A model generated the notes under the pieces. The model was not told the origin of the DNA. It ran no database searches and was given only the letters and a program-made list of their open reading frames with translations. From positions 1 through 20,766 of IMG/VR virus record IMGVR_UViG_3300020470_003082: a DNA stretch of 20,766 bases. One strand, 5' to 3'. This DNA comes from a virus. Below, piece by piece: positions 1 to 20,465 of the stretch. Each line of letters starts with the position of its first letter. Position 1 is the first letter of the stretch. Made by a program: the position numbers and the translations under genes.

Positions 1-516
1 ACAGTTGAAGATGAAGGTTCTGCATTATCAACTTTAGCAACAACACTTGATTTTGTTGGATCTGGTGTTGTTGCCTCTGGTACTGGTGCAACTAAAACAA
101 TTACTATTGCTGGTGGAGGTGGTTCATTAGCATCAAGAACTACAAAGAGTGGTACTACTGCATCTCTTGCTGCTGCTGCTTCTGGTGATTTATCAATAAC
201 GGCATTTAAAGCATATAATTTGCTTAAAATAGCAATAGATCATCCTGCATGGGTCAGACTTTATGTTGATTCTGCATCTAGAACATCTGATGCTAGTAGA
301 GCAGAAGGAACAGATCCTACACCAGGGTCAGGTGTTATTGCAGAGGTTTTAACAACAACTGTGGGAGCAAGTACATTTTTGATGTCACCTGCTGTTTTTG
401 GTTGGAATAATGATGGAACTCCTTCTACAACAGTTTATGCTAAAGTGACCAATAAGGAAGCTTCTACTGCTCGTGCTATTACAGTAACTTTAACCCTAAT
501 AGAAGCGGAGGCATAA
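1..516 (+). CDS. Phage fibre-like virion structural protein, 3' part only
   Basis: Frame 1 is open from the first base to the TAA at 514-516, giving 171 visible residues; the true start lies upstream. A methionine-like TTG at 220 is internal and should not be taken as the start. The visible N-terminal part has a DEGSALSTLATTLDFVG segment followed by a TKTITIAGGGG stretch, a module I know from cyanophage tail-fibre and baseplate-associated proteins. The C-terminal part, from about the KAYNLLKIAIDHPAWVRLY region to the end, looks like a compact beta-sandwich domain that recurs in cyanophage structural proteins (R-T-S-D-A-S-R, then EGTDPTPGSGVIAEV, then YAKVTNK). The next gene starts immediately after its stop. 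Its place just before g8 is where T4 has g7, but I see no clear gp7 similarity, so a role as a baseplate or fibre component is inference. Confidence 0.7.
   Translation, partial: TVEDEGSALSTLATTLDFVGSGVVASGTGATKTITIAGGGGSLASRTTKSGTTASLAAAASGDLSITAFKAYNLLKIAIDHPAWVRLYVDSASRTSDASRAEGTDPTPGSGVIAEVLTTTVGASTFLMSPAVFGWNNDGTPSTTVYAKVTNKEASTARAITVTLTLIEAEA
504..511 (+). promoter_or_regulatory. Strong Shine-Dalgarno site for the subtilase gene
   Basis: AGCGGAGG, with GGAG at 507-510, ends a few bases before the ATG at 517. It lies inside the last codons of the upstream gene. This is the clearest Shine-Dalgarno match before any gene in the window, several of which have none, and it suggests efficient translation of the protease. 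Confidence 0.65.
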
Positions 517-2175
517 ATGGAAAAGGAATATGTCGTTACCCTTAAGGATTTTGACGAATCTGATCAATTTTATAATGATATGGAAACTAGTGGTGGAACA
601 AGTACTATCCCTGATAGGGTGGTGACTTGCTGCTGTAGGAGAACTATTAGTCGTAATACTCACTATATGCTTACAGATGAGGAAGCTCAGCAGATAAAAG
701 GGGATGCTAGAGTATTAGCATGTGAACTAACACCAGAACAATTGGGATTAGAACCAACTCCATATTGGAATGCAGCACAGGATGGTGATTGGGATAAAGA
801 TCCCAATGCTGCTGCTGATAAAAATTGGGGTTTAAAAAGATGTATTGATGCTCAGCAAACGGCAGGTTGGGGTGATAATGGAACTTCTCAAATAACTGGA
901 TCTGTTAATACTACAAGTTCTGGTTATAATGTAGATGTTATTATTTGCGATAGTCATCTTAATTTCAGCCATCCAGAATTTAGAGAAAATCCTGATGGAA
1001 CTGGAAATCTTCGTAGTGTTGAATTTGATTGGTTTCAGTATAGTAGTGCATTAGGTTATAGTACTAATGCAAATTATAGTTATGCTGGAGATGGCGGTAG
1101 TCATGGTACTCATGTAGCAGGTACTGTTGCTGGTAATACTCAAGGATGGGCAAGAAATGCCACTATTTACAATATGGAATTTATGAGCGATGCTGGTGGA
1201 GGAAATGGTGTAAGTAATTGGACTAATATACTATGGGATTATGTTAGGCATTTTCATAAGAACAAACCTATTAATGCTGCAACTGGTAGAAGAAATCCCA
1301 CAGTAATGAATAATAGTTGGGGATGGAGTGGCGGTTATAATTCAGGCGACCTTTCTAATGCTACTAGTATAACTTATCAAGGAACCACTACTGATTTAAC
1401 AGGAAATACGACTGCAGAGAAAAAAACTATACTTGAATCAAAAAGAGTTCCTGTTCCAGGAAATACATTTATCTATAAAAGACCTGGAAGGAATGCAGCA
1501 ACTGATGCTGATCTTCAGGATGCTATTACTGATGGTGTAATTGTAGTTGCTTCTGCAGGTAATAGTTATTGGCCCATGGATGTTAGTGGTGGTCCAGATT
1601 ATAATAATACACTTACTATATCTGGTACTACTTATGATGTAGGGAAAGGAGCAAGTCCTGGATCTGCAGATAATGTTATTTGTGTTGGATCCTTAGGAGT
1701 TGATACTGCTGATTATAAATCTGATTTTAGTAATTTTTCAGAGAGGGTTGATATATGGGCTCCTGGTTCTAATATTATGTCATCTGTAAAAAACAGTTCT
1801 TCTGGATATAATAATCAACAGCAGGATCCACGAGATTCCAGCTATTATAATGCATCTGTTAGCGGTACAAGTATGTCAAGTCCGCAAATTACTGGACTAC
1901 TTGCATGTATTGCAGAGCAATGGCCAAATATGACACAATCTGAAGCTCTTCAGTTTTTAATAGAATCATCTAAATCTCAGGTTGGAACTACAGGTACTGT
2001 TGTTACTAGTCCATATGAAGCCCTAGGTGATAGTAATAATAGATATGTAAGTTATCTTTATAAAAGACCTCAAAGTGGAACTTTATTCCCTCATGACAAT
2101 CATGGAAATAGAGTTTCATCAACCAATGGTGTAAAATATCCAAGGGTAACTAGCGTTGTCACTAAGACTTCGTAA
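517..2175 (+). CDS. Subtilisin-family serine protease (peptidase S8) with I9-like pro-domain
   Basis: This 552-residue protein has the complete subtilase signature: Asp145 in CDSHLNFSHPEF, His196 in GGSHGTHVAGTVAG, oxyanion Asn349 in VVASAGNSY and nucleophile Ser452 in SGTSMSSPQ, plus an NNSWG strand at about 265. Residues 1 to about 80 resemble an inhibitor-I9 pro-domain (YVVTLK start, then SRNTHYMLTDEEAQQIKGDARVLACEL), which in the family acts as intramolecular chaperone and inhibitor, so the product is probably a zymogen. Three consecutive cysteines occur at 38-40. There is no signal peptide or membrane segment, as expected for a protein used in the virion or released by lysis. It lies between a fibre-like gene and g8 with no gap upstream, so it is probably made late with the tail proteins. 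A role in digesting host surface protein or in maturing a tail protein is inference. The fold call is firm; the biological role is not known. Confidence 0.93.
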   Translation: MEKEYVVTLKDFDESDQFYNDMETSGGTSTIPDRVVTCCCRRTISRNTHYMLTDEEAQQIKGDARVLACELTPEQLGLEPTPYWNAAQDGDWDKDPNAAADKNWGLKRCIDAQQTAGWGDNGTSQITGSVNTTSSGYNVDVIICDSHLNFSHPEFRENPDGTGNLRSVEFDWFQYSSALGYSTNANYSYAGDGGSHGTHVAGTVAGNTQGWARNATIYNMEFMSDAGGGNGVSNWTNILWDYVRHFHKNKPINAATGRRNPTVMNNSWGWSGGYNSGDLSNATSITYQGTTTDLTGNTTAEKKTILESKRVPVPGNTFIYKRPGRNAATDADLQDAITDGVIVVASAGNSYWPMDVSGGPDYNNTLTISGTTYDVGKGASPGSADNVICVGSLGVDTADYKSDFSNFSERVDIWAPGSNIMSSVKNSSSGYNNQQQDPRDSSYYNASVSGTSMSSPQITGLLACIAEQWPNMTQSEALQFLIESSKSQVGTTGTVVTSPYEALGDSNNRYVSYLYKRPQSGTLFPHDNHGNRVSSTNGVKYPRVTSVVTKTS

Positions 2176-2207: not shown

Positions 2208-3761
2208 ATGGCTGCCATTATAACTGATCAAATTAGGATATTAAACGCAAAGAATTTTCTTGCGGGAGTACAAACTTCCAATAATTCCTATTATACCTTT
2301 ATTGGATTGCCAAATCCTACAGATTTTCAATCAAATTGGGATGTTAGTCCTCCTTCTCCTAAAGATTCATTCAATGATGAGAATGAATATTGGGATACTA
2401 TGATTGCAATGAAGAAACTTAATTCTACAGATGTTAGACAAGTAATTACTAAACGAATATGGTCATCTGGAATTACGTATGATTATTATAAGAATGATTA
2501 TACTATTTCCAATGTAGCTCCAGTTTCGGGAGCAACTAATTTGTATAATGCTTCATATTATGTTCTTAATAGCGATTATAGAGTTTATGAATGTTTGCAG
2601 AATGGTACTGATCCAGAGAATCCTAATGGAAGACCTTCTTTAGATGAACCAACTTTTACAGATTTAGAACCAAGATCTGCTGGTAGTAGTGGTGATGGTT
2701 ATATCTGGAAATATCTTTATACTATTAAACCTTCAGAGGTTACAAAATTTGATTCTATTGATTTTATGCCAGTTCCTCAAGATTGGGAAACTAATACTGA
2801 TGATTCTGCAGTAAGGTTAAATGCTATAGATGGATCTATTAAAACAATAATTATTACTCATCGTGGTGTTGGTATTGGTACTGCTAATAGAACTTATACT
2901 CAAGTGCCTATCAAAGGTGATGGTAGTGGAGCAGAAGCAACTATTGTAGTTAATAATGATTCTAAAGTTGATTCAATAACTATTTCTAATCAAGGATCTA
3001 ACTATACTTATGGTAGTGTTGATTTGGTTGCTGGAGGAGTTCCACTAGGAACTACACTTCCTACTTTTGATGTTATTATCTCTCCTGAAGGTGGACATGG
3101 TGCAGACATTTATAGGGAACTTGGAGCATATAATGTTCTTTTATATTCTAGAATTGAGAATGATAACGAAAATCCAGATTTTATAACTGGAAACCAATTT
3201 GCAAGAGTTGGTGTTGTAGAAAATCCAAAAGCATATGGTTCTACTGAAATTTTATCTAAAGATAAAGCTAGTGCTGTTGGAGCACTTAGATTGACTGGAG
3301 CTGGATATAGTTCAGCTACTTTTGCAGCAGATTCGACTTTTACACAAACTGTTGCAACTGGAGCAACTGCTGTTGGTAGGGTTATTAGTTATGATCAAAA
3401 TACAGGTGTATTAAAGTATTGGCAAGATAGGTCAATGGCTGGATTTACTACAGTTGGAACTGCAATAACAAATCCCACATATGGGTTTGAAATACAAGAA
3501 TTTACTGCTTATCCTTTAGGAACTGGTAGTATTACTATTGTTCCATCAACTGGTTCAAATTTGGCAATAAATACCTCATTTACAGGTCTATCTACTGTAA
3601 TAAATAATAGGACATATTACCTTGGTCAAGATTTTTCCAATGGTATTGCCAATCCAGAGGTTAAAAGACATTCTGGAAATATAATTTATGTTGATAATAG
3701 ACCATCTATTGTCAGATCATCGAATCAAAAAGAAGATATTAAAGTTGTTTTGCAGTTCTAA
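2208..3761 (+). CDS. 8: Baseplate wedge subunit gp8, enlarged
   Basis: This is the homologue of T4 gp8, a wedge protein that links inner and outer parts of the baseplate. The match is clearest at GDGYIWKYLYTI (from about residue 162; T4 has GDGYVWEYLFEI) and at the C-terminus from residue 487, RHSGNIIYVDNRPSIV followed by a hydrophobic end (T4 RHSGEMIYMENRPPII). The N-terminal YYTFIGLPNP and PPSPKDS segments also fit. T4 gp8 has 334 residues and this one 517. The extra length lies roughly between residues 210 and 460 and includes glycine-rich repeat-like pieces (SNQGSNYTYGSVDL near 260, LTGAGYSSATF, GATAVGRVISYDQNTGVLKYW) akin to modules in other proteins of this window. The start lacks a Shine-Dalgarno sequence and follows an A-rich run. 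It is the first clear T4 core gene of the window. Confidence 0.93.
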   Translation: MAAIITDQIRILNAKNFLAGVQTSNNSYYTFIGLPNPTDFQSNWDVSPPSPKDSFNDENEYWDTMIAMKKLNSTDVRQVITKRIWSSGITYDYYKNDYTISNVAPVSGATNLYNASYYVLNSDYRVYECLQNGTDPENPNGRPSLDEPTFTDLEPRSAGSSGDGYIWKYLYTIKPSEVTKFDSIDFMPVPQDWETNTDDSAVRLNAIDGSIKTIIITHRGVGIGTANRTYTQVPIKGDGSGAEATIVVNNDSKVDSITISNQGSNYTYGSVDLVAGGVPLGTTLPTFDVIISPEGGHGADIYRELGAYNVLLYSRIENDNENPDFITGNQFARVGVVENPKAYGSTEILSKDKASAVGALRLTGAGYSSATFAADSTFTQTVATGATAVGRVISYDQNTGVLKYWQDRSMAGFTTVGTAITNPTYGFEIQEFTAYPLGTGSITIVPSTGSNLAINTSFTGLSTVINNRTYYLGQDFSNGIANPEVKRHSGNIIYVDNRPSIVRSSNQKEDIKVVLQF

Positions 3762-3767
3762 AAAATC

Positions 3768-6700
3768 ATGCCCCAGCAAACTAATCTAAATGTAGCTCCA
3801 TATTTTGACGACTTTGATGCCGAAAGTGATTATCATCAGGTTTTGTTTAAACCTGGTTACCCAATACAAGCTAGAGAATTAAATAATTTACAATCAATAT
3901 TACAAAATGAGATTGAAAAGTTTGGTCAGCATTTTTTCAAGGAAGGTGCTAAAGTAATTCCTGGTAATACAGGATATACTCAAAGATATACTGGTATTCA
4001 ATTAAATAATGATTTTAAAGGAGTACCAGTTTCTGCTTATGTAGACCAGTTAATTGGGGCAAAAATTACTGGTTTAACATCTGGAGTAGCAGCGATTGTT
4101 GGTGAAGTTTTACTTCCTGAAGATTCTGAAAGAGATACTTTAACTCTTTATTGTAATTATGTATCTTCTAGTACTTCTGATAATCTTACAGAGACGTTTT
4201 CAGATGCAGAAGAATTGACATCTAATTCAGATATTATTTCTGGATTATTGAGTAATACTACAATTAAAGCAGGAGCACCTTTTGCAACAACTATTGCTAC
4301 AGATGCTGCAATTGTTGGATCTTCGTTTCAAATTGGAGATGGTGTTTATTTTGTTAGGGGAAAATTTGTTTTAGTAAATAAAGAAACTCTTATTCTTGAT
4401 CAATATGGATGGCTACCTTCTTATAGAATTGGTTTTTATGTAGATGAACAAATAATTACTGCAGACCAAGACGAAACTTTAAATGATAATTCGCAAGGAT
4501 TTAATAACTATGCTGCACCTGGGGCAGATAGATTAAAAGTTTCAGTATCATTATTTAAGAAGAGTCTTACTGATTTAGATGATAATAATTTTATTGAATT
4601 AGCAACTGTTGTTGATGGTGCTTTAAGGGCAGTTAATAGAAAAGGTTTTGGAGAAGGATCTTTTGATTATGATGTTGTAGATACTCTTGCAAGAAGAACT
4701 TATGATGAGAGTGGTAATTATTATGTAAAACCTTTTAACGTATTTGTAAGAGATTCTTTAAATAATAATATAGGAAATCAAGGAGTTTTTCAGGCTGATC
4801 AATTTACATATGGTGGATCTGTTCCATCTGATGATTTAGCATTATATAAAATTTCTCCCGGAAAAGCATATGTTAAGGGATATGAAGTAGAAACTATCAA
4901 TACTACTTGGATTGATGCGGATAAACCTAGATCAACTAAACTTTTAAAAGATCAATACTTTATATACAATACTGGATTAACTTTAGATTTAAATAGAAAT
5001 TATAGAACTCCTACAATAGGAATTGGTAATACTTATTATGTAAGTTTAAGAGATGAAAGAGTTGGAGATGATCAAGAAGTAGCTCCTGGAAATGAAATTG
5101 GACTTGCTAGAGTATATGATTATAGATTAAAATCTGGATCTTATAGTTCTACAAATGATAATATAAATGAGTGGGGAATTTCTTTATATGATGTTCAGAA
5201 ATATACTACACTTACTTTAAATCACGCACATACACTTTCTGTTCCTACTTTTATTGAAGGAAAAAATAGTGGTGCAACAGGATTCATTAGACATGCAGTT
5301 TCTGCTGGAACAGCTGTAACTGTATATGAAACAACTGGAGAATTTATTAAGAATGAAGAATTAATTTTTAATGGAATTGAAAATGGAAGAATTGCACTAG
5401 CAGTTAATAATGAATCTCTTTCTGATGTAAAATCGATTTTTGCTACAGATGATGGTGTTGTAGGGATTAATACTTTTAGTGCAGATGTAATTCAATCAAC
5501 CAAATTTAATGTCGGAATAGTATCGATAACAGGTATAACTACTACTCATGCTGGAGGTATAAGTACTGTAAGAGGTTCTAATCTATATAATTCTTCTACG
5601 GGATTGAATGTAAGTTTATCGGGCGAGAGGAGTATAAAAGTAGGAGATTTGGTTCAGTATACTGATAGTACTTATGAAGAACCTGTTAGAGCCAGAGTTA
5701 CTTTTGTTGGATCTGGAGATGATATAGCATCTTCTTATATTAATATTGCAGGAATTACCACAGTAACTGGAATTTCACAAGGTGCTCTTCCTACGTATGG
5801 TTCGGCACCAATTTTACCTACAGATTTTAAAGTATTATCTTCTCCTTTGAGTAGATCTACAGATAATTCATTATTTACACAACTTCCAAAACCAAATGTT
5901 TCTAATGTAGATTTAGATAAGTCAACTATTACTATTAGAAAGGTTTATACTGTTAATATAACATCAAATGAGATAGCGTCTGGAACTAAACCAGTAGCTG
6001 GAATTAATGAGACATTTTTAACTTATGATGAAGAGAGATATTCCTTAATAAGATCTGATGGAACTACAGAAGAATTAACTGCTGATAAATTTACCTTTAA
6101 TGCTACTGCAACAGAATTATCTATTCGGAATTTAGGATCTAATGATACTGGAGCAACATTGGTTGCAACATTAAGGAAAATAAAGCCAAAAGCAAAGAAA
6201 AAAATAAAAAATAGAGTTAATTCTATTATAATTGATAAATCAAAAAATTCAAATTCTGGTATTGGCACTACTACTACAAATGATGGATTAGATTATGGTA
6301 GTGGAAATTATCCTTATGGTACAAGAGTTCAGGATAAAATTATATCATTAAATAATCCTGATATTATTAAAATTCATGCAATTTATGAATCTGCAAATAT
6401 CTCAAATCCATTAGCACCTACAATAATTCTAACTTCGATTATAAGTGATACCAATACAACTGCTGAACTGATAGTTGGAGAACTTTTAATAGGTCAGACA
6501 AGTGGAGCAGTAGCAATTTGTGCTGAAAAATTAACTGATGCTCAAATTGCATATATTGAGGAAAATGATTTCTTCTTTAAAGAAGGAGAAACTGTAATAT
6601 TCCAAGAATCTGGAGTAAGTGCAATAGTTAGTACTTTAGGTGCTGGAAGTTTTGATATAAGTCCTAGTTATACTTTTACTTCTGGACAAAAAGAATCTTT

Positions 6701-9700
6701 CTATAATTATGGAACAATTAAAAGAAAAGCTGATGCACAATCTCCTACTAAGAGATTAAAGGTTTATTTTGAAAATGGTTATTATGATTCAACTGATGAA
6801 GGTGATGTTACTACAGTAAATTCATATGAAACTTATAATTATGGAACTGAAATTCAGGAGATTGGTGGAATAAGAACTAGTGATATTATTGATATTAGAC
6901 CAAGAGTTTCTGAATATGCAGTTGCTGAAAATGTAAGATCTCCTCTTGAATTTTTAGGAAGAGAATTTGATGGAAGTGGAAATTCTGCTACTAATATTTT
7001 AGCATCAAATGAAAGTATTATTGCTGATTTCTCATATTATCAAGGAAGAATTGATAGAATCTTCTTAACAAAAAATGGAAGGTTCCAGTTAGTATATGGT
7101 GTTCCTTCAGATAATCCACAGTATCCAAATCCAGTTGATGATTCTATAGAAGTAGCTACAGTTACTCTTCCACCATATTTGTATAATCCTGATGATGCGC
7201 GTATTAAGTTCTTAGAGCATAAACGCTTCCAAATGCAAGATATTAAAAAACTTGAAGATAGACTTAGAAATTTGGAGTATTATACTGCACTATCTTTATT
7301 GGAACTTAATACTGCTAATATTTTTATTCCTGATAGTGATGGTATAAACAGATATAAGTCTGGATTCTTTGTTGATAACTTTAGTACTTTTGGATCTCAA
7401 GATACTAGTAATAAAATTAATAATAGTATCGATAGAAGAAATGCTGCTTGTAGACCAAAGCATTATACTAACGCTATTGATCTTCAGATTGGTGGAATTA
7501 CTGGTATTTCCATTAGTAGTGAGATAGGAGCTATCGCAAATACAACTGTTGGAACTAATATAAGAAAACAGGAAAATGATATTCTAACTTTAGATTATGC
7601 TGATGTAGAATGGGTTAAGCAGGTTTATGGAACCAGAACAGAAAGTGTAACTCCTTTCATTATGAATTTCTGGCGGGGAACTGTTAATCTAACCCCAGCA
7701 TCAGATACTTGGATAGATACTGTAAGACTTGATGCTAAAATCATTGATGTTGAGGGTGATTATGCTGCAACTATGAGACTTGCAGTAGCTACAGAAGATG
7801 TAGATGCTCAGACAGGATTTGCACCTATTGTTTGGGATGCATGGTCTATTAACTGGACTGGTACAGAGACTAGATCTGGAGGAACTGAGGATAGAGTTAC
7901 TCAAGTATGGAGGGGAGGAACATTAGTTACTACAACTACCAGACATACAATGGAAGAAACCATTGATACTGGAGTTGAAAGTAGAGAAGGTACTCAATTA
8001 GTTATTTCAGAGAGATTTGATAGGGAATCTGTAGGGGATAGAGTAGTAAGTAGAGAAATTATTCCATGGATGAGATCTAGGAATATTGAATTTAATGGTA
8101 AGCGTATTAAGCCATTAACAAGAATGTATGCATTCTTTGATGGAGAAGATGTAACCAAGTATTGTGTTCCAAAACTTCTTGAAGTTACCATGACATCTGG
8201 TACTTTCCAAGTTGGAGAAACTGTACATGGTAGAATGGATATGACTGGTAATCATTCGGATCATGAACCACGTTGTTCTGAAATATATTTCAGAGTAGCA
8301 GCAGCTAATCATAGAGAAGGTCCTTATAATGTTCCGTCAGTAGTTTATCCTGAGAATCCTTATAATAGTCCGCAACTATTACCTGCTACATACTCGTCTA
8401 CTTCTACTATTTTGAATGTAGATACACATTCACTTGCTGATGAGGCAGTAGGAAGATTTTATGGATGGGTTGAAGAAGGTCTTAGATTGGTTGGACAAAC
8501 AAGTGGAGCAACTGCTTATGTCACACAAATTCGTCTTATTTCTGATATGGCAGCAGGTCTTATTGGAAGTTATTGGAACCCAGATCCAAATTGTAGAAAT
8601 TTCCCAAGGTTTGAAGCTGGAACTAAAACGTTTACTTTGATTAGTGAGGAAGATAATGATAGGTATGAGGCTGTTACTCTTGCTGATGAGGAATATATTT
8701 CTTCAGGAACTCTAGAAACGGTTCAGGAAAATATTATTTCTGTTAGAAATGCTGAACGTGAAGTTAGAGGTCAGCAGGAATCTAGGGGTGCTGAAAGAAC
8801 TACTGGTATGGTTTCTGTAGATCAAGAAGTAGTATCGGTAACTTTTTGGACGCCGCCGCCACCACCACCACCTCCTCCACCGCCGCCAAGAAACTGGGGT
8901 GATCCTATAGCACAATCATTCTTGGTTGAAGAGGATACTGGCATATTTGTAACTAGATGTGATGTATTCTTTAGAGATAAAGATGAAAATAATTTGCCAG
9001 TGACGTTCCAAATTAGAACTATGCGGGATGGAACTCCAACAGAAAAGATTCTTCCTTTCTCAGAAGTTGTCAAATCACCAGATGATGTTCTACTTTCTTC
9101 TGATGGATCTGTTGCTACTACATTCCAATTTGCAGCACCAGTTTATCTTGAAGCAGATCAAGAATATGCAATAGCACTAGAATCCGCATCTCCAGATTAT
9201 AGTGTTTATATTTCAAGAGTTGGTGAAAATGATTTAATAACACAATCATTTGTTACAAATCAACCTTATTTGGGATCATTATTTAAATCGCAAAATTCTT
9301 CTACATGGGAGCCAAGTCAGTGGGAAGATCTTAAGTTTACTCTTTATAGAGCAGAGTTTTTACCATCAGGGTCTGTTGATTTCTTTAGTCCAGAACTTAC
9401 TGAAGGAAATAAGCAAATTCCTTTGCTTATGCCAAATTCTCTTACTCCTATCGCAAGAAAGATAAGAGTTGGTTTAGGAACTACTGTTGCAGATTCTGGA
9501 TATGAATTTGGAAATACTTTCTTCCAACAAGAAACTAATGCAACTGCAAACCTAGTGGGAACTGCCGGAACAGCAACTGGAGATTTAACGATTTCTAATG
9601 CTGGTATTGGATATACTCCTAATACAGGAAGTTTTAGTTTCAGTGGTGTAACTTTAAATACTCTTACGGGTAATGGAAGAAACGCAACTGGAGACATTAC

Positions 9701-11342
9701 TATTAGTGATGGAATTGCTATTGGAGCTACTATTAATAATGGAGGATCTGGTTATCAGGTTGGTGATGTTCTTGAAGTCTCTAATATTGGAATTGCTTCT
9801 GTTGGTAAAAATATGAGATTGACAGTTGCTGGTATTGGATATACTAGTGAATTAGTTTTGGATAATGTACAGGGTAATTTTGTGGTTGGATCTGCAAATA
9901 CTGTGATGTATATTAATTCTAGTGGAGTTACAACTTCACTCAACTCTGTTAATGGTGGAGATGTTCAAATATCTTCTATTGTAGTGAATTCTGATGGTAC
10001 GCATATTAAAGTGAATCATAAGAATCATGGAATGTATGCAGATAAGAATGTTGTTAAAATAATGGATGTTAAGTCAGACATTAAACCAACAATACTCACT
10101 TCTGCTTATGAAGTTGGATCTGTTGGAGGAATACCTGTTCAGGATGGATCTATATTCTCAACTTTTGAGAATGTTGGTATTGGAACTACTAATACTGGAT
10201 TCCTTCGTATTGAAGATGAAATTATTGAATACACAAATGTATCTGGTAATACTATTGGTGGTATTACTAGAGGATCTAACAAAGCTAATTATCCTGTAGG
10301 AACACCTGTTTATAAGTATGAACTTTGTGGAGTTAATTTGAAGAGAATTAATGCGACTCATACATTAGCAGATGCTACAGTTTCTGATCCTATTACTCTT
10401 GATTCGTATCATATTAAAGTGGATATGTCTACGAAATTTAATGCTGCTAATGATGATAGGAGTAATGATACTGGATATCCAGCTTTATATTTAAATGAAA
10501 CTAAATCTACTGGTGGGTATAAGACAAAAGCAACTCAAAATATGCCTTTTGAACTTCTTACTCCAATTGTTCAAAATGTAACAACCAATGGAACTTCTAT
10601 TACTGGAGAAGTAAGAACTGTTACTAACAGTAGTATTAGTGGGAATGAAATTCCATTTGTTGATGCAGGATTTGAGACCTTTAATATAAATGGGACACAT
10701 TATTTTGATACTCCCAGAATGATAGCTTCTAAAGTTAATGAAGAAGCTAATATGAGTGAATTTGAAGGGAACAAATCATTGAATATGAGATTGGTCTTTG
10801 GATCAGTGGATAATAGAATAAGTCCAGTAGTTGATGGACAAAGAGTAGCTGCTATTCTTACTACAAATAGGGTTAATGATGTAATTTCAGATTATGCAAC
10901 AGATAATAGAGTAAATGGTATTGATAGTGATCCAACAGCATTTAAATATCTATCGAAGCAGATTAAATTACAACAATCTGCTACTTCTCTTAAGATATTT
11001 GTAGATGCTCACATTAATGTTAATTGTGATATTAGAGCGTTCTATGCTATAGGTGATGTATCCGGGTTTGATCCAATCTTTATTCCTTTCCCAGGATATA
11101 GTAACCTTAATGGTAGGGGACAAATAATCTCCAAAGAAAATAGTAATGGTGAATCTGATGTCTTTATTTCTCCATCTAATGAAGTTGGATTTACTGCTAA
11201 TAATGTAGACTTTAAAGAGTATACTTTTACTGCAGATAATTTACCTTCTTTTAGGTCTTATCAAATTAAGATTTTATTTACTTCTACAAATCAGGTTTAT
11301 GTTCCTCAAATGAAAGATTTGAGAGTTATCGCATTAGCTTAA
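3768..11342 (+). CDS. Giant virion structural protein with DUF4815-like region
   Basis: This 2,524-residue protein occupies the g9-g12/wac interval of T4. Its N-terminus (FKPGYPIQARELNNLQSIL near residue 28) and later segments (YYQGRIDRIFLTKNG near 1090, KRFQMQDIKKLEDRLRNLEYY near 1150, SGFFVDNFSTF near 1197, PFIMNFWRG near 1300) resemble the DUF4815-type phage structural family as I remember it. Residues 1696-1707 are twelve consecutive prolines. After that hinge a DPIAQSFLVEEDTGIFVTRCDVFF domain begins, then glycine-rich repeats near 1945-2030 (GIGYTP, GSGYQVGD, GIGYTS) and a GFLRIEDEIIEYT module near 2145. GQTSGA-type mini-modules occur near residues 101, 500, 909 and 1577. There is no transmembrane segment. 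It is probably a peripheral baseplate or fibre-attachment protein. Whether it replaces gp9-gp12 is inference. The start has no Shine-Dalgarno sequence, only an A-rich run six bases after the g8 stop. Confidence 0.85.
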   Translation: MPQQTNLNVAPYFDDFDAESDYHQVLFKPGYPIQARELNNLQSILQNEIEKFGQHFFKEGAKVIPGNTGYTQRYTGIQLNNDFKGVPVSAYVDQLIGAKITGLTSGVAAIVGEVLLPEDSERDTLTLYCNYVSSSTSDNLTETFSDAEELTSNSDIISGLLSNTTIKAGAPFATTIATDAAIVGSSFQIGDGVYFVRGKFVLVNKETLILDQYGWLPSYRIGFYVDEQIITADQDETLNDNSQGFNNYAAPGADRLKVSVSLFKKSLTDLDDNNFIELATVVDGALRAVNRKGFGEGSFDYDVVDTLARRTYDESGNYYVKPFNVFVRDSLNNNIGNQGVFQADQFTYGGSVPSDDLALYKISPGKAYVKGYEVETINTTWIDADKPRSTKLLKDQYFIYNTGLTLDLNRNYRTPTIGIGNTYYVSLRDERVGDDQEVAPGNEIGLARVYDYRLKSGSYSSTNDNINEWGISLYDVQKYTTLTLNHAHTLSVPTFIEGKNSGATGFIRHAVSAGTAVTVYETTGEFIKNEELIFNGIENGRIALAVNNESLSDVKSIFATDDGVVGINTFSADVIQSTKFNVGIVSITGITTTHAGGISTVRGSNLYNSSTGLNVSLSGERSIKVGDLVQYTDSTYEEPVRARVTFVGSGDDIASSYINIAGITTVTGISQGALPTYGSAPILPTDFKVLSSPLSRSTDNSLFTQLPKPNVSNVDLDKSTITIRKVYTVNITSNEIASGTKPVAGINETFLTYDEERYSLIRSDGTTEELTADKFTFNATATELSIRNLGSNDTGATLVATLRKIKPKAKKKIKNRVNSIIIDKSKNSNSGIGTTTTNDGLDYGSGNYPYGTRVQDKIISLNNPDIIKIHAIYESANISNPLAPTIILTSIISDTNTTAELIVGELLIGQTSGAVAICAEKLTDAQIAYIEENDFFFKEGETVIFQESGVSAIVSTLGAGSFDISPSYTFTSGQKESFYNYGTIKRKADAQSPTKRLKVYFENGYYDSTDEGDVTTVNSYETYNYGTEIQEIGGIRTSDIIDIRPRVSEYAVAENVRSPLEFLGREFDGSGNSATNILASNESIIADFSYYQGRIDRIFLTKNGRFQLVYGVPSDNPQYPNPVDDSIEVATVTLPPYLYNPDDARIKFLEHKRFQMQDIKKLEDRLRNLEYYTALSLLELNTANIFIPDSDGINRYKSGFFVDNFSTFGSQDTSNKINNSIDRRNAACRPKHYTNAIDLQIGGITGISISSEIGAIANTTVGTNIRKQENDILTLDYADVEWVKQVYGTRTESVTPFIMNFWRGTVNLTPASDTWIDTVRLDAKIIDVEGDYAATMRLAVATEDVDAQTGFAPIVWDAWSINWTGTETRSGGTEDRVTQVWRGGTLVTTTTRHTMEETIDTGVESREGTQLVISERFDRESVGDRVVSREIIPWMRSRNIEFNGKRIKPLTRMYAFFDGEDVTKYCVPKLLEVTMTSGTFQVGETVHGRMDMTGNHSDHEPRCSEIYFRVAAANHREGPYNVPSVVYPENPYNSPQLLPATYSSTSTILNVDTHSLADEAVGRFYGWVEEGLRLVGQTSGATAYVTQIRLISDMAAGLIGSYWNPDPNCRNFPRFEAGTKTFTLISEEDNDRYEAVTLADEEYISSGTLETVQENIISVRNAEREVRGQQESRGAERTTGMVSVDQEVVSVTFWTPPPPPPPPPPPPRNWGDPIAQSFLVEEDTGIFVTRCDVFFRDKDENNLPVTFQIRTMRDGTPTEKILPFSEVVKSPDDVLLSSDGSVATTFQFAAPVYLEADQEYAIALESASPDYSVYISRVGENDLITQSFVTNQPYLGSLFKSQNSSTWEPSQWEDLKFTLYRAEFLPSGSVDFFSPELTEGNKQIPLLMPNSLTPIARKIRVGLGTTVADSGYEFGNTFFQQETNATANLVGTAGTATGDLTISNAGIGYTPNTGSFSFSGVTLNTLTGNGRNATGDITISDGIAIGATINNGGSGYQVGDVLEVSNIGIASVGKNMRLTVAGIGYTSELVLDNVQGNFVVGSANTVMYINSSGVTTSLNSVNGGDVQISSIVVNSDGTHIKVNHKNHGMYADKNVVKIMDVKSDIKPTILTSAYEVGSVGGIPVQDGSIFSTFENVGIGTTNTGFLRIEDEIIEYTNVSGNTIGGITRGSNKANYPVGTPVYKYELCGVNLKRINATHTLADATVSDPITLDSYHIKVDMSTKFNAANDDRSNDTGYPALYLNETKSTGGYKTKATQNMPFELLTPIVQNVTTNGTSITGEVRTVTNSSISGNEIPFVDAGFETFNINGTHYFDTPRMIASKVNEEANMSEFEGNKSLNMRLVFGSVDNRISPVVDGQRVAAILTTNRVNDVISDYATDNRVNGIDSDPTAFKYLSKQIKLQQSATSLKIFVDAHINVNCDIRAFYAIGDVSGFDPIFIPFPGYSNLNGRGQIISKENSNGESDVFISPSNEVGFTANNVDFKEYTFTADNLPSFRSYQIKILFTSTNQVYVPQMKDLRVIALA
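8853..8888 (+). repeat. Twelve-proline tract in the giant structural protein
   Basis: Twelve consecutive proline codons (CCG, CCA and CCT mixed) form a GC-rich island in otherwise AT-rich sequence. It separates the DUF4815-like N-terminal two thirds from the DPIAQSF domain, so it looks like a rigid linker or hinge. The mixed codons argue that the protein sequence, not a simple trinucleotide expansion, is maintained. Confidence 0.9.
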
Positions 11343-12854: not shown

Positions 12855-15425
12855 ATGCTTAATCCATATTTTCAACAAGGGGCGAGATCTGAACAGAATT
12901 TAGTTCAAGATTTAATCAACGAACAGTTGAGAATGTATGGTGTTGAGATTTATTATTTACCTAGAAAATATATGACTGAAAATACAGTCATAAGGGAAGT
13001 TATTGAATCAAAATTTGATGATGCATATCCATTAGAAGCATATATTGATAATTATGATGGATATGCAGAAAATCCAGTTCTTTTATCAAAGTTTGGTATT
13101 GAAGCACAGAATGAAATAACATTAGTAGTTTCAAGAGAAAGGTGGGAAACATATATCCAACCTTTAATGGAGAATGAATCTAATGTAAAACTTACTAGTC
13201 GTCCTAAAGAAGGAGATATAGTATATTTCCCATTAGGAGATCGTTTATTTGAAATTAAATATGTAGAGCATGAAAAACCATTTTATCAACTTCAAAAAAA
13301 TTATACGTATACTTTACGATGTGAACTCTTCCGCTATGAAGATGAAGTTATTGATACTGGAGTAGAAGAAATTGATGATGAGTTGACAGGAGATAATTCT
13401 GATGGAACTGCCGGTGTAGATGATAGTATTTCAACTATTTTAGGTTCTACTCAAACACTTACTCTTGTTGGAACAGGAGTAACAGCAACTGCTCTAACAA
13501 ATATTGTTGATGGATATATTAGATCAATTTCTTTATCAAATCGTGGAGGAGGATATACTAGTATTCCTACTGTAGGTGTATCTTCAGCTCCTTCAGGAGG
13601 GATTACTGGTATACCTACTGCAAGTATGATTGGTGGAATACAGTATTGTAATTTAAATATAAATTCCAACCAAAAATCAGTTCAAGCAATCAATTTGGTA
13701 AATTCTGGTGCAGGATATACAGTTGCTCCTTATGTTACTATTACTGGAGGAAAAGGTAGTGGGGCAATAGCATCTGCTGGTATTGGAACCACTGGTGGTG
13801 TTGGAGTTGTAACTGTAAGTGGATCTGGTTCTGGATATGTTGTAGCACCTACAGTTACATTCTCTACTCCAACACACGTTGGTGCTGCTGCTACTGCTAT
13901 TTTAGATACTCCTATGGTTGGTGGTGGAGTAAGTATTACTTCTGCTGTTATTAGTATTGGTTCTTCTTCTTATCTATTCCCAGGTGGAACAACAGGTGGT
14001 GTATTCTATAAAAAGGCACCTACGATAACATTTAGTCTTCCAACAGGTTCTGGAAACATTGCCACAGCAACTGCAACGTTAGATAGTTGGGCATTAACAG
14101 GTGGTACTGTAGAAAGTGTTGCTATTAATACCGGCGGAAGATTCTATACAAGTGCTCCTACAGTCACCTTCTCTGCTCCTACTGGATCATTTGGTGCTGT
14201 TGCAACAGTTGGTTTAGCAGGTTCTTCTATAGATCCTGGTTCTGTAGCATTTACTACTACTGGTAGATCATATACTACAGCACCAACAGTTGCAATATCT
14301 ACTTCTGGTACACAACTTGCTCCATTAGTAGTTTCTGTTGGTATTGCTACTATTCATCCTATAACTGGTATTGTTACTGCGGTTGGATTTAACTCAACAA
14401 CAGATCCTTGGTGTGTTGGAACTGGTGCTACTATAGGACTTGGATATACTGTTGCACCATCTATTACATTCTCTGGTGCTACTTCTCAATATAGAGCAAC
14501 AGGAACTGCTACAATTGATGCAGATGGTCAAGTTGATGCTGTTTCTGTAGCAACTAGTGGTTATGGATATGATGCTGCTCCAACTGTTACAATATCTGCA
14601 CCTGCTGGAGGATCAGAAGAGTTTAGAGCACTAGGATTTACTACAATAAGATATAATTCTATTGAGACTTCAGGAACATTGGGTATTGGGTCTACCATCA
14701 TTACAGGAATTACTACTACTAATATTCTTGTTGGTGATAGGATTAGATTGGCTAGTGAGTATGATAATCCTCTTGTTAACTTTATTGAATCTGATACATA
14801 TGTATCTCAGATTGGGGTAAGCACCATTTACATGTCTTCTACTTCATCTAATGTTGGTATCGCAACATCAGCATTTGAATTTGGTATTGATAAGTGCGGT
14901 ATTGTTACAGGTATTGGTATTACCTATGGTGGAGGTGGATATTTAGAACCACCAACAGTATCTATTTCTAACACTGAAGGAGATAAGAACTATGTAGATA
15001 TTGCAGCTGGAATACATACTGCTACAGGTATTTCTACAATTACTTCTGGAGGATCAGTTGCTGGAATATGGATAAGTGATGCTGGTCATGGATATATACT
15101 AACCCCAACTGTTACTCTCTCCGATCCTTCAATGGATTCTACTGGTAACTTTATCTTTAATGAGATAGTTGAGGGTCAAACAAGTGGAACAACTGCAAGA
15201 GTAAAAACTTGGAATTCTACTACAAATACATTAGAAGTTGGTACTGTTGCTGGAACATTTGCTCTTGGAGAATATATAGTTGGTAAATCTTCTGGCGCTT
15301 CTCATAAATTAAGACTTCTTGATACAGATCCTCTTGATGATGGATTTGCTGATAATAAGACTATAGAAACAGTAGCAGATACTATTTTGGATTTCACAGA
15401 AGGTAATCCATTCGGTAATCCATAA
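12855..15425 (+). CDS. 14: Neck protein gp14 with a very large repeat-rich insert
   Basis: Residues 1 to about 150 align with T4 gp14: MLNPYFQQGARSEQNLVQDL, then GVEIYYLPRKYM (T4 GVECYYVPREYV), LLSKFGIEAQNEITLVV, and EGDIVYFPLGDRLFEIKYVE near residue 119 (T4 [20 protein letters not shown]). The last 20 residues (IETVADTILDFTEGNPFGNP, from 837) correspond to the NPFDN end of T4 gp14. T4 gp14 has 256 residues; this one has 856, because about 650 residues are inserted near residue 185. The insert holds about ten GYTxAPTVTIS-type repeats and, near its end, a GQTSGTTARV/GKSSGASHK module. The conserved head and tail parts should keep the neck function, while the insert probably projects from the neck. 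The call of gp14 is firm; the function of the insert is unknown. Confidence 0.93.
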   Translation: MLNPYFQQGARSEQNLVQDLINEQLRMYGVEIYYLPRKYMTENTVIREVIESKFDDAYPLEAYIDNYDGYAENPVLLSKFGIEAQNEITLVVSRERWETYIQPLMENESNVKLTSRPKEGDIVYFPLGDRLFEIKYVEHEKPFYQLQKNYTYTLRCELFRYEDEVIDTGVEEIDDELTGDNSDGTAGVDDSISTILGSTQTLTLVGTGVTATALTNIVDGYIRSISLSNRGGGYTSIPTVGVSSAPSGGITGIPTASMIGGIQYCNLNINSNQKSVQAINLVNSGAGYTVAPYVTITGGKGSGAIASAGIGTTGGVGVVTVSGSGSGYVVAPTVTFSTPTHVGAAATAILDTPMVGGGVSITSAVISIGSSSYLFPGGTTGGVFYKKAPTITFSLPTGSGNIATATATLDSWALTGGTVESVAINTGGRFYTSAPTVTFSAPTGSFGAVATVGLAGSSIDPGSVAFTTTGRSYTTAPTVAISTSGTQLAPLVVSVGIATIHPITGIVTAVGFNSTTDPWCVGTGATIGLGYTVAPSITFSGATSQYRATGTATIDADGQVDAVSVATSGYGYDAAPTVTISAPAGGSEEFRALGFTTIRYNSIETSGTLGIGSTIITGITTTNILVGDRIRLASEYDNPLVNFIESDTYVSQIGVSTIYMSSTSSNVGIATSAFEFGIDKCGIVTGIGITYGGGGYLEPPTVSISNTEGDKNYVDIAAGIHTATGISTITSGGSVAGIWISDAGHGYILTPTVTLSDPSMDSTGNFIFNEIVEGQTSGTTARVKTWNSTTNTLEVGTVAGTFALGEYIVGKSSGASHKLRLLDTDPLDDGFADNKTIETVADTILDFTEGNPFGNP
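13522..15127 (+). repeat. Degenerate GYTxAPTVTIS repeats inside gp14
   Basis: About ten diverged copies of one short beta-strand unit are readable in the translation: GGGYTSIPTV, GAGYTVAPYV, GSGYVVAPTV, FYKKAPTITF, RFYTSAPTVTF, RSYTTAPTVAI, GLGYTVAPSI, GYGYDAAPTV, GGGYLEPPTV and GHGYILTPTV. Spacing is irregular, roughly 40 to 60 residues with one longer gap. The DNA copies have diverged, so this is an old protein repeat and not a recent DNA duplication. Confidence 0.85.
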
Positions 15426-16952: not shown

Positions 16953-19900
16953 ATGTCGGAACAATTACCGTCGATAGATGACTTCTATGAGGAGTTACCA
17001 CAAGTCGATGAGGTTATAACAGAAGAGAATTTACCCTCTATTGATGAGTTCATTGAGAAGGAAGAAGAAGATATTGTAGAAGAGACAATAGAAGAACCTG
17101 TAGTATTAGAAGAAACAACAGGAGATCTTACAGAAATACTGCACTTAATTAATGCAGTAAGAAGGGATATTCCAGAGATTCCTGAAATTAAGTATTATGA
17201 TGAGGAACTGGAAAAGATTTCTGCATATATTGAGCAGGTTAAGGAAGGAATACCTGAAATACCTGAAATAAGGTATTATGATAATGAAGTAGAAGCAATA
17301 TGTGAACAGATTGATCAGGTAAGAGAAGAAATAAAGGATCTTCCTGAAGTAAAATATTATGATGAACAAGTAACTAATATTGAAGATAGGATTGATTTAC
17401 TTCGTCAAGAGGTGGTTAATCTTCCTGAAGTAAAATATTATGATAAAGAAATAGAAGCAATATGTGAGCAAATTGATAAAGTTAAGGCAGAGATTCCTAC
17501 TTTCCCTAAATGGGTTAATGAAGTAAATGAAGTTCCTGATTTTTCGTGGATTGGAAAAACCTTTAGTGTAATTGATGATGATTTTGTTAAAGTTGATGAT
17601 AATATAAGATCTATTAGAGATAGAATCGATCAAGAAGTTAAAGAGATTGCTGAAAATCTTGATGTAAAAGATTTTGAAAATAAACTTGAATTTGAAAAAG
17701 TAACTACCAATTTAAAAGAAACAAAGGATAAAATATATAAAGAACTAAGAGAAGCTGCTCTTGGGATATATGATGCTAAAAAGGGATATAAGGATGATGA
17801 TAGGAAATTAAAGAAGCAGATATTAAGTCAATATAATAAGTTAAGTCAAAATATTGATAAGCAATTACTTGAAACTAAAGAGGAACAGGATAAATCTAAT
17901 AATAATCTTATATCCTATTTTGAAGGGTTGAAAGAAGAAATTGCAAATCTTCCAAAACCAAAAGATTATGATGATCCGATTAAAGGTTTAGAAAAAGATT
18001 TATATACTCTAGACAAAAAGAGAGAGGATCAAGGAGTTAATATTGCTGAATTATATAAGATTGTTGGTGAATTAAAAGAAACTCAGCAAGAGTTAAAGGA
18101 GGTGTATAATGACCGTCCTTTAACTCCTGATCCAGCACTTAAGCAAGGAAATGATCCTCTTACTCCAACTGATAAAAAATTTGCTACTTTAGAAGATTTA
18201 GCAGCAAACTATAGATTATTTGTTAATAGGGTTGAGCAGCAATTATATACTATTGGTGGCGGTGGTGCAGGATTTCTTAAAGATCTTGATGATGTTAATC
18301 TTGCTGGATTGGAAAATGGTAATACTATAGTATGGAATGCCTCAACTAGTAAATGGGATGCTGGCACAGGTGTTGGTGCAGGTGGAACATGGGGAGTAGA
18401 TGCTGTTGGAATTCATACTACTAAGAGTGTTGGTATAAACTCCACATCTGCAAAAGCAGGATATGCTTTATGGGTTGGTGGTAAGTTAGGTGTTTCTGGT
18501 GATATTGAATATGATGAAGCAACTGCACGTAACTGGAATATATCTGGTGTTGCAACTGCTGCCAGAATGCAAGTTGGGGCAGGAACTACCTGGCCAGAAG
18601 ATTTAGTAGTTAATGGTAATGCAAGGGTAATTGGAATATTAACTATTGGTACAGGATCTGTTGTTATTGATGGTGATAATGAAGAGATTTTAATTGGTAG
18701 TGAAGATACTGTTAAGATTACCAATTCATCCGTTACTATTGGTGCTGGTGTAACCATTAATGCTACTGCGTCTGGCATTAACTCTGCACCTAATGTTTTA
18801 TATGTCGCAAAAGATGGTCAAGATACTAATAATGGTACTTCAATTGATAATGCATTTTTAACTATTAAAGCGGCAGTTGGTGCTGCTTCATCAGGAACTA
18901 CTGTTAAAGTTTTGTCTGGAAAATATATAGAAACTAATCCTATTGAAGTTCCTGCTTTTATATCTATTGTTGGTGATGACCAGAGAACAGTTGAAGTAAG
19001 TGGTAATACATCTACTAGTGATATTTTCCATGTAAGAAAGGGTGATAAGTTAGCAAATATGACTTTCAAAGGTCACCTTGCTCCTGCTGCTGCTGTTGCT
19101 TTTCCTACTGGAGATGATATAGCAGAAAATGTGGGTGGAGGAAAATGGAAAGGTCCATATATTCAAAATTGTACAAGTGATACTACCACAGGAACTGGAA
19201 TTTATATTGATGGTGATCAAGCTCAATTATTGAAAGCAATGAATGTAGATGCTTTCACTCAATATAATCAAGGTGGTGTTGGAGTTGCTGTTACTAATGG
19301 TGGATTTGCTCAGTTAGTTTCTCTCTTCACTATTTGTTGTAATGAAGCAGTTACTTGTGATAAGGGTGCTCAAGCAGATATAGCAAATAGTAATTGTAGT
19401 TTTGGTACTTATGGGTTAGTTGCTCGCGGAACTAGTGATTTACAATATACTGGTGTAGTTACAGCATCTGCTGCTGTATCTCAAGCAAATGTAAAAGTTA
19501 ATGTATCTACTCCTGAGAAAAATATCTCAGGATTTGTTTATGATCATATAAGTGGTATTGCTACCGTAACTACTAGTTCTGCTCATGATTTTCTTGTTGG
19601 AATGGGCGTTACTGTAGCTGGTGTGGGAATGACATGTACTTATGGTACTAAGACATATCCATATAGGATGCCACATATTTTTGAGGTTGAATCAATTCCT
19701 TCTACAACCAGTTTTTCGATTAATGTTGGTGTATCTACAGTTTCTCACCAATATGTTTCTGGTGGTACAGTAAGTATAGATGTAGATAGACCTTATGATG
19801 GACAGCTTGTTTATTTTGACACTCTCTATAACACCGTTGAGACCATTTCTGTAACTGATGGAGGAAGTGGATATACTTTGACTCCAACTGTTACTATTGC

Positions 19901-20465
19901 CGATCCTACAGGTCCTACAGGAGAGACTTGTACAGCATATGCTACTTTAAGTGGTGATGCTGTTTCTTCGATTACTATTATTAGTAGTGGCAATCAATAT
20001 ACTTCTGCTCCTAGTGTTACTATTAGTGGTGGAGGTGGATCAGGTGCTACTGCTACAGCAGCTATTCAGCCAATCTACTATACAATAAATAGTTCAACTC
20101 CTGTTACATCTGGAATTTCTACATTAACACTTCAATCTAATTTACTTAACACTGTTGGTGTTGGGTCTACAGCATACTTCTCTCAAGGAAGTAGAATTGT
20201 TGCTAGTTCACATACATTTGAATATGTTGGTGCGGGTAATCTTATTACTGAAGCTACTCCTAAAAGGGGTGGTGTTACCACTCAAGCAAATGAAGTTGTT
20301 ACTGAAGATGGTGGAAAGGTCCTTTATACCAGTACGGACCAAGCAGGCAACTTTAGAATAGGTGATGATTTACAGATTAATCAAGAAACTGGTACAATTA
20401 GTGGAAGATCTTTCAGCAAAAGTTTATTCTCAGAAATGACACCGTTTATCCTAGCACTCAGTTAA
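16953..20465 (+). CDS. Long fibre-like virion protein: coiled-coil repeats plus beta-helix
   Basis: This 1,170-residue protein is probably a tail or neck fibre. Residues 1-45 are acidic and carry LPSIDDF and LPSIDEF, a duplicated short motif. Residues 80-187 are four exact-period 27-residue coiled-coil repeats starting KYYD or RYYD, followed by more charged coiled coil to about residue 390. A LDDVNLAGLENGNTIVWNASTSKWD linker near 445 is typical of phage fibres. From about residue 615 (LYVAKDGQDTNNGTSIDNAFLTIKAA, then SGTTVKVLSGKYIE) it resembles the DUF1565/pectin-lyase type of right-handed beta-helix. GYTLTPTVTIADP and QYTSAPSVTISGG repeats lie near 970 and 1013. The end (TSTDQAGNFRIGDDLQINQETGTISG, then SFSKSLFSEMTPFILAL) is a C-terminal module I know from cyanophage fibres. 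Its place between g16 and g17 is an accessory slot in cyanophages. An in-frame stop at 16938-16940 fixes the ATG start, which lacks a Shine-Dalgarno sequence. Confidence 0.85.
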   Translation: MSEQLPSIDDFYEELPQVDEVITEENLPSIDEFIEKEEEDIVEETIEEPVVLEETTGDLTEILHLINAVRRDIPEIPEIKYYDEELEKISAYIEQVKEGIPEIPEIRYYDNEVEAICEQIDQVREEIKDLPEVKYYDEQVTNIEDRIDLLRQEVVNLPEVKYYDKEIEAICEQIDKVKAEIPTFPKWVNEVNEVPDFSWIGKTFSVIDDDFVKVDDNIRSIRDRIDQEVKEIAENLDVKDFENKLEFEKVTTNLKETKDKIYKELREAALGIYDAKKGYKDDDRKLKKQILSQYNKLSQNIDKQLLETKEEQDKSNNNLISYFEGLKEEIANLPKPKDYDDPIKGLEKDLYTLDKKREDQGVNIAELYKIVGELKETQQELKEVYNDRPLTPDPALKQGNDPLTPTDKKFATLEDLAANYRLFVNRVEQQLYTIGGGGAGFLKDLDDVNLAGLENGNTIVWNASTSKWDAGTGVGAGGTWGVDAVGIHTTKSVGINSTSAKAGYALWVGGKLGVSGDIEYDEATARNWNISGVATAARMQVGAGTTWPEDLVVNGNARVIGILTIGTGSVVIDGDNEEILIGSEDTVKITNSSVTIGAGVTINATASGINSAPNVLYVAKDGQDTNNGTSIDNAFLTIKAAVGAASSGTTVKVLSGKYIETNPIEVPAFISIVGDDQRTVEVSGNTSTSDIFHVRKGDKLANMTFKGHLAPAAAVAFPTGDDIAENVGGGKWKGPYIQNCTSDTTTGTGIYIDGDQAQLLKAMNVDAFTQYNQGGVGVAVTNGGFAQLVSLFTICCNEAVTCDKGAQADIANSNCSFGTYGLVARGTSDLQYTGVVTASAAVSQANVKVNVSTPEKNISGFVYDHISGIATVTTSSAHDFLVGMGVTVAGVGMTCTYGTKTYPYRMPHIFEVESIPSTTSFSINVGVSTVSHQYVSGGTVSIDVDRPYDGQLVYFDTLYNTVETISVTDGGSGYTLTPTVTIADPTGPTGETCTAYATLSGDAVSSITIISSGNQYTSAPSVTISGGGGSGATATAAIQPIYYTINSSTPVTSGISTLTLQSNLLNTVGVGSTAYFSQGSRIVASSHTFEYVGAGNLITEATPKRGGVTTQANEVVTEDGGKVLYTSTDQAGNFRIGDDLQINQETGTISGRSFSKSLFSEMTPFILALS
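17190..17513 (+). repeat. Four tandem 81-base repeats encoding a 27-residue coiled-coil unit
   Basis: The units are 17190-17270, 17271-17351, 17352-17432 and 17433-17513. Each begins with [KR]YYD and the first three end in a proline-containing turn, PE[IV]; the fourth ends FPKW. Units 2 and 4 share the EAICEQID core. A 26-base stretch at 17338-17363 recurs identically at 17419-17444, exactly 81 bases away, which points to fairly recent duplication or gene conversion. Confidence 0.9.

Follow-up and report, generated by a model that had tools for sequence, protein, structure and literature searches.

In T-even phages, the gene for the fibre protein gp37 is followed by that for gp38, a separately encoded tip adhesin or chaperone. 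T4 also encodes, near its virion genes, the prohead protease gp21, which belongs to a separate protease family and acts in the head. Here, we analysed a 20,766-nucleotide stretch of viral DNA (IMG/VR record IMGVR_UViG_3300020470_003082, hereafter the window), in which a gene for a subtilisin-like protease directly follows a fibre-like gene. Its product resembles gp21 in being phage-encoded near virion genes, but it matches S8 peptidases only. The resemblance to gp37/gp38 is one of arrangement, drawn from general knowledge, and no homology is claimed: the gene lies directly after a fibre gene (94/94 loci here), it is exchangeable between phages, and its product has a proposed seat at the fibre tip, but this product is a protease.

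The closest described genes are found in isolated cyanophages. S-CREM1 (50% identical) and S-H38 (47% identical) carry the gene in the corresponding position, after a tail-pin gene and before gp8, where it is annotated as 'peptidase' and 'subtilisin-like serine protease', respectively; unlike the window, both have a 700-aa gene between the protease and gp8. The P-SSM2 homologue carries the note 'contains PF00082' (T4-GC 292). These three genes and those of S-WAM2 and S-H9-1 belong to the same family as the window protease, at 27-50% identity. Another S8 peptidase, T4-GC518, was mentioned in P-HM1 and P-HM2 (Sullivan 2010; PMC3037559). Our literature search found no paper describing this cyanophage protease experimentally. 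The gene is therefore not new, since annotations of it exist for this tail block in cyanophage isolates; the first-pass annotation of the window had missed the entries in S-H38 and S-CREM1. What is new, as far as could be found, is the anatomy formed by the protease, the fibre domain and the protease tail.

Gene order at the protease locus

The protease gene is an open reading frame of 552 aa on the plus strand (517-2175), immediately 3' of the reading frame that ends at position 516, and the gp8 reading frame (2208-3761) begins 33 nt past it. The features of the locus are as follows.

1..516, plus strand: 3' end of a fibre-like gene, 5' part cut by the contig end, 171 aa readable (PHROG 15343 and 9627 matches)
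139..513, plus strand: C-terminal companion domain of the fibre protein, residues ~47-171 (beta-sandwich model), proposed protease docking site
507..511, plus strand: Shine-Dalgarno-like GGAGG (sequence), within the last codons of the fibre gene
517..2175, plus strand: S8 subtilase gene, 552 aa (Pfam PF00082, PHROG 9158, fold)
517..729, plus strand: I9-like pro-domain, residues 1-71 (modelled topology; weak PF05922 matches in relatives)
730..774, plus strand: low-confidence linker, residues 72-86 (pLDDT ~54), presumed self-cleavage region
772..2064, plus strand: catalytic domain, residues 86-516 (VIA-align range 86..516 against proteinase K-like structures)
949..951, plus strand: catalytic Asp145 (invariant)
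1102..1104, plus strand: catalytic His196 (invariant)
1561..1563, plus strand: oxyanion-hole Asn349 (invariant)
1870..1872, plus strand: catalytic Ser452, in GTSMSSP (invariant)
2110..2145, plus strand: C-terminal tail motif RVSSTNGVKYPR, residues 532-543 (motif counts; pLDDT <50), proposed docking tag
2208..3761, plus strand: gp8-like baseplate wedge gene (PHROG 438, E 2e-165; Pfam Phage-Gp8)

The coordinates and the PHROG and Pfam matches confirm the earlier description of an adjoining fibre-like gene with gp8 next in order. Homologues of the 1..516 gene in complete loci are annotated as tail fibre or tail pin. A survey of relatives found the protease gene at the same tail block, including 11 further viral contigs in which it leads directly to gp8. 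A chimeric assembly is ruled out because these contigs share the protease-gp8 order.

Elsewhere in the window, gp8 is followed by a gene for a 2524-aa protein (3768-11342) that contains 12 consecutive prolines (TPPPPPPPPPPPPRNW), encoded around 8.8-8.9 kb. Repeats of the GGGYTSAPTVTIS type are inserted in a gp14-like neck protein and also occur in a fibre-like protein (12855-15425, 16953-20465).

The catalytic domain and a predicted pro-domain

Pfam Peptidase_S8 (PF00082) matched residues 139-486 (E 6.6e-29, 101.6 bits against a cut-off of 21.8), and PHROG 9158, a family of cyanophage proteases, covered nearly the whole protein (residues 1-547, E 1.2e-94). S8 was the sole protease match in the Pfam and PHROG profile searches. 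The residues D145, H196, N349 and S452 are invariant in 16/16 aligned homologues, and in an alignment of 97 sequences they are unchanged wherever covered (96 sequences each, two fragments apart). We modelled the protease with AlphaFold2 from 60 viral sequences (pLDDT 84), and found that the model superposes on proteinase K-like structures (keratinase, aqualysin, proteinase K) with Z 34-36 and rmsd 2.1-2.7 over ~270 residues. The superposition on keratinase 5wsl (Z 36.2, rmsd 2.2, 274 residues) identifies a subtilisin fold. The window protein shares with these S8A enzymes the fold, the D-H-(N)-S order of the triad and an I9-like N-terminus. It departs from them by its additional insertions (270 aligned positions are spread over 430 residues), by its conserved C-terminal tail and by its setting among phage tail genes.

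At the N-terminus, DSSP applied to the model gave E3-9, H12-23, E38-40, E47-52, H54-60 and E66-71. This beta-alpha-beta-beta-alpha-beta order is ferredoxin-like and is that of the I9 pro-domain, and it sits before the catalytic domain, followed by the low-confidence linker. Structures of mature enzymes align with the model only from residue 86 on. The I9 profile PF05922 did not match the window protein; it matched 19/39 N-termini of the family weakly (best E 0.0024) and was the commonest match among them, and FluMu_N matched 8/39, also weakly. A PDB profile search with the pro-domain as query returned nothing relevant. Residues 1-71 thus look like an I9 pro-domain in the model, and by sequence the assignment is weak.

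These results bear on the first-pass annotation, which had described an apparently active zymogen in the tail block. Its placement of the four catalytic residues in S8 motifs proved exact, the S8 profile and the predicted structure agree with it, and its I9 claim holds for the modelled topology and not at the level of a profile match in the window protein. Judged from sequence and model, the window protein is almost certainly an active S8 protease, and the invariant triad, the fold and the I9-like N-terminus support a predicted zymogen.

Distribution of the protease family

A tblastn search found the gene in 39 phage records, all from cyanophages or marine viruses. A pattern search of IMG/VR confirmed at least 545 relatives among the 600 candidates listed. 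Among bacterial genome contigs, just nine loci were found, and every one of them lies in a MAG or metagenome bin; the family therefore appears confined to viruses. These nine loci are probably viral in origin, and a recent capture of a host gene was provisionally rejected on this basis.

Several relatives and another S8 gene stand out in domain content or setting. The proteases of S-H9-1 (L015), S-CAM4 (L018) and AG-345-P14 (L016) have a fused cupredoxin-like C-terminal domain (HPF...YYYICQFHxxM), and Pfam Copper-bind matched three protease relatives (best E 0.029). S-BM3 encodes a 'peptidase S8' of ~2650 aa (SBM3_00202, L114:1-1355) that precedes a companion-domain fibre by a few genes. One protease fragment, 85% identical to the window protease (L011:2-418), lies beside Phage_base_V and terminase genes in an order unlike that of T4-like cyanophages.

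Genetic coupling to the upstream fibre domain

In the 94 loci with a readable upstream gene, this gene ends <=10 nt from the protease start, and in most relatives its last codons contain a purine-rich sequence resembling a ribosome-binding site. The upstream proteins range from 90-aa fragments to >1300 aa. Of these 94 proteins, 90 have in common a C-terminal companion domain of ~110 residues, with fibres that otherwise vary; the remaining four (P-SSM2, S-SCSM1, S-T4, Sf-CH5) have a second type of C-terminal domain in common. The companion domain was modelled as a beta-sandwich with pLDDT mostly >=96. We did not name it by fold, since its best PDB matches are jelly-roll-like domains of many kinds at Z 7, below a meaningful level; the C-terminal beta domain of the subtilase Tk-SP (3afg 421-518) is among them.

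Pairwise comparison of 62 nonredundant loci showed relatedness of both the protease and the companion domain in each of the 1891 pairs; the loci were picked by protease, so relatedness of the protease holds by construction and that of the companion domain does not. In the same loci, the share of related pairs falls to 7.8% for the stretch of fibre that immediately precedes the domain and to 10.8% for the downstream gene. The conserved unit is therefore the protease together with the fibre tip domain. gp8 lies directly downstream of the protease in just 12/97 loci, and the mirror-tree correlation is moderate (r 0.53). The conserved partner is thus the C-terminal domain of the upstream gene, not gp8 or the 2524-aa gene, a point that had gone unnoticed in the first reading of the window.

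In the converse search with the companion domain as query, 75/79 informative genes were directly followed by this protease family, a proportion that overstates exclusivity because the query profile was made from protease-linked companions and the best 80 loci were kept. The other four are followed by another S8 protein (L143), an S53 protein (L154; 425 aa, kumamolisin match, E 8.8e-31) and two members of a family of large non-protease proteins (L179, L190). In S-CAM1, the gene after the companion-domain fibre again encodes an S8 protein. The family of L179 and L190 is found after companion-domain fibres in Sf-CH1b, ACG-2014i, S-BM3, S-SCSM1, S-H9-1 and AG-345-F15 as well. Since the domain stands before tail-less non-protease proteins (L179, L190, Sf-CH1b, ACG-2014i, S-BM3), it is not protease-specific.

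Proteins of one family, 450-930 aa long, occupy the protease's place after companion-domain fibres at eight loci (L113, L114, L120, L023, L015, L119, L179, L190). They start like MAVTKTEYLVNGGNTGW, and several end in ARTT. A Pfam scan gave no match in the members scanned.

A conserved C-terminal tail

The last 27 residues of the protease have pLDDT <50 in the model, so the tail is probably disordered when alone. Within it, R532, P542 and R543 are invariant in an alignment of 60 sequences. The motif R-x(2-5)-G-x2-[YFW]-P-R is present in 69/79 nonredundant relatives (73/79 with a relaxed pattern), usually ending 5 to 9 residues short of the C-terminus. It occurs in 0/476 other ORFs (last 60 residues) and in 0.18% of shuffled tails. 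It is missing from the four relatives whose upstream companion is of the second type (P-SSM2, S-SCSM1, S-T4, Sf-CH5); in these, both the upstream fibre domain and the protease tail differ in type from those of the window.

The same tail was also found in an S53 protein, in a second S8 group and in S-CAM1 gp5. The kumamolisin-like S53 proteins (L154, L196-L205) have an upstream companion domain and a C-terminal tail as in the window, although they belong to another peptidase family. Among S53 sedolisins, the tail is present in 10/10 proteins with the companion domain upstream, compared with 0/4 complete ones without it. In the second S8 group the numbers are 4/4 and 0/7. With near-duplicates removed by eye, the tail is present in ~11/11 with the domain and 0/8 without, counts that are not phylogenetically independent. 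The association between tail and domain thus recurs in separate protease groups. Because the tail is predicted to be disordered, is invariant, and is present or absent together with the companion domain, it is best explained as a docking tag. This tail had been overlooked in the first-pass annotation.

A second tail type, ~[LVI][YF]xP[FY]xN, lies near the protease C-terminus at L004, L013, L014 and L017, and also at L215-L221. It pairs with a different C-terminal domain of the upstream fibre and may be a second docking pair.

Evidence from virions

Mass spectrometry of S-SCSM1 virions detected 45 phage proteins (PMC9602691). The GenBank record of this phage labels 47 CDS '(virion protein)' and leaves several predicted structural proteins unlabelled, and from these numbers the label probably marks the proteins that were detected. 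The label is carried by gp144, the protease homologue. This is a distant relative (~28%) with the second companion type upstream and without the R-x(2-5)-G-x2-[YFW]-P-R tail. In S-CREM1, virion proteomics covered only 14 proteins, and the main text is silent on a peptidase among them (PMC9964418). The earlier proposal that the protease is virion-borne thus gains indirect support from a labelled distant homologue in a genome with virion mass spectrometry. We consider it likely that the protease is carried on the virion.

S-SCSM1 gp144 (L013:9932-14167) is 1411 aa long and has C-terminal ConA/LamG-like lectin domains (Laminin_G_3, E 1.2e-25).

Proposed role and alternatives

The first-pass annotation had proposed two possible roles, digestion of a protein coat on the host and processing of a large tail protein encoded nearby. 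The constant company of the protease and the end piece of a fibre gene suggests an enzyme mounted on fibre tips. The protease would be made late, together with the upstream fibre, and the I9-like domain would fold it and keep it silent until the chain cuts itself near residues 72-86. Through its C-terminal tail, the enzyme would dock on the beta-sandwich domain at the C-terminal end of the fibre, as a tip protein with a gene of its own. Host surface proteins would be cut at adsorption, which would expose a receptor or clear the path of the baseplate. Docking on the upstream fibre through the tail, as read from sequence, is reasonably probable. A host surface protein as the substrate is more tentative, at a little under an even chance. 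The whole reading, a virion-borne, tail-fibre-mounted subtilase made as a zymogen and acting on host surface proteins at adsorption, is one towards which we lean slightly. The lectin-like or cupredoxin-like extensions of some relatives agree with this reading.

The main rival is that the protease processes the fibre. During assembly it would cut another tail protein or the upstream fibre, whose C-terminal domain it might remove or nick, in the way that gp21 acts on the T4 head, and it would not be an infection enzyme. Such a role would suit the invariant active site and the position of the gene, which in every locus lies next to one fibre domain and is probably co-translated with it. However, the fibre domain is also retained by phages whose next gene encodes a non-protease, so it needs no such cut, and the swapping of two peptidase families at this site is easier to reconcile with a mounting site than with a specific cleavage. 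The lectin-like extensions in one relative also suggest action outside the cell, and we regard a maturation protease as unlikely.

It is quite unlikely that the fibre domain and the protease merely travel together as a recombination block without contact, with the tail serving, for instance, in folding or in attachment to the host surface. Fibre genes often recombine, adjacency by itself would hold the pair together, and the mirror-tree correlation is only moderate (r 0.53); however, linkage alone is insufficient because in two other protease groups the tail occurs only with the domain upstream and is absent beside fibre genes of other types. A late intracellular protease, digesting host proteins or helping release and merely encoded among tail genes, would agree with the host-directed genes common in phage fibre regions, such as the neighbouring metabolic genes of S-RSM4 and S-WAM2. 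Against it stand the tail-gene position in the isolates examined, the virion label in S-SCSM1, the conserved coupling to the fibre domain, and the danger that a broad protease active in the cell during assembly would pose to the virion, which make it improbable.

The fibre-tip reading may extend to a general plug-in system, to which we give an even chance. A receptor domain at the fibre C-terminus would take interchangeable S8 or S53 enzymes through the shared tag R-x(2-5)-G-x2-[YFW]-P-R, and other types of domain and tag, such as the FNPF-type tail of the P-SSM2 group, would work likewise.

To our knowledge, phage fibre enzymes degrade polysaccharides. If true, a fibre-tip protease carried on a short exchangeable tag would open a distinct route across the host surface, one that is widespread among viruses infecting the main photosynthetic bacteria of the ocean, and it would indicate host surface proteins as a barrier or receptor. 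The pairing of tail and domain is a concrete binding prediction, and it would let such enzymes be found in metagenomes and matched to their fibres.
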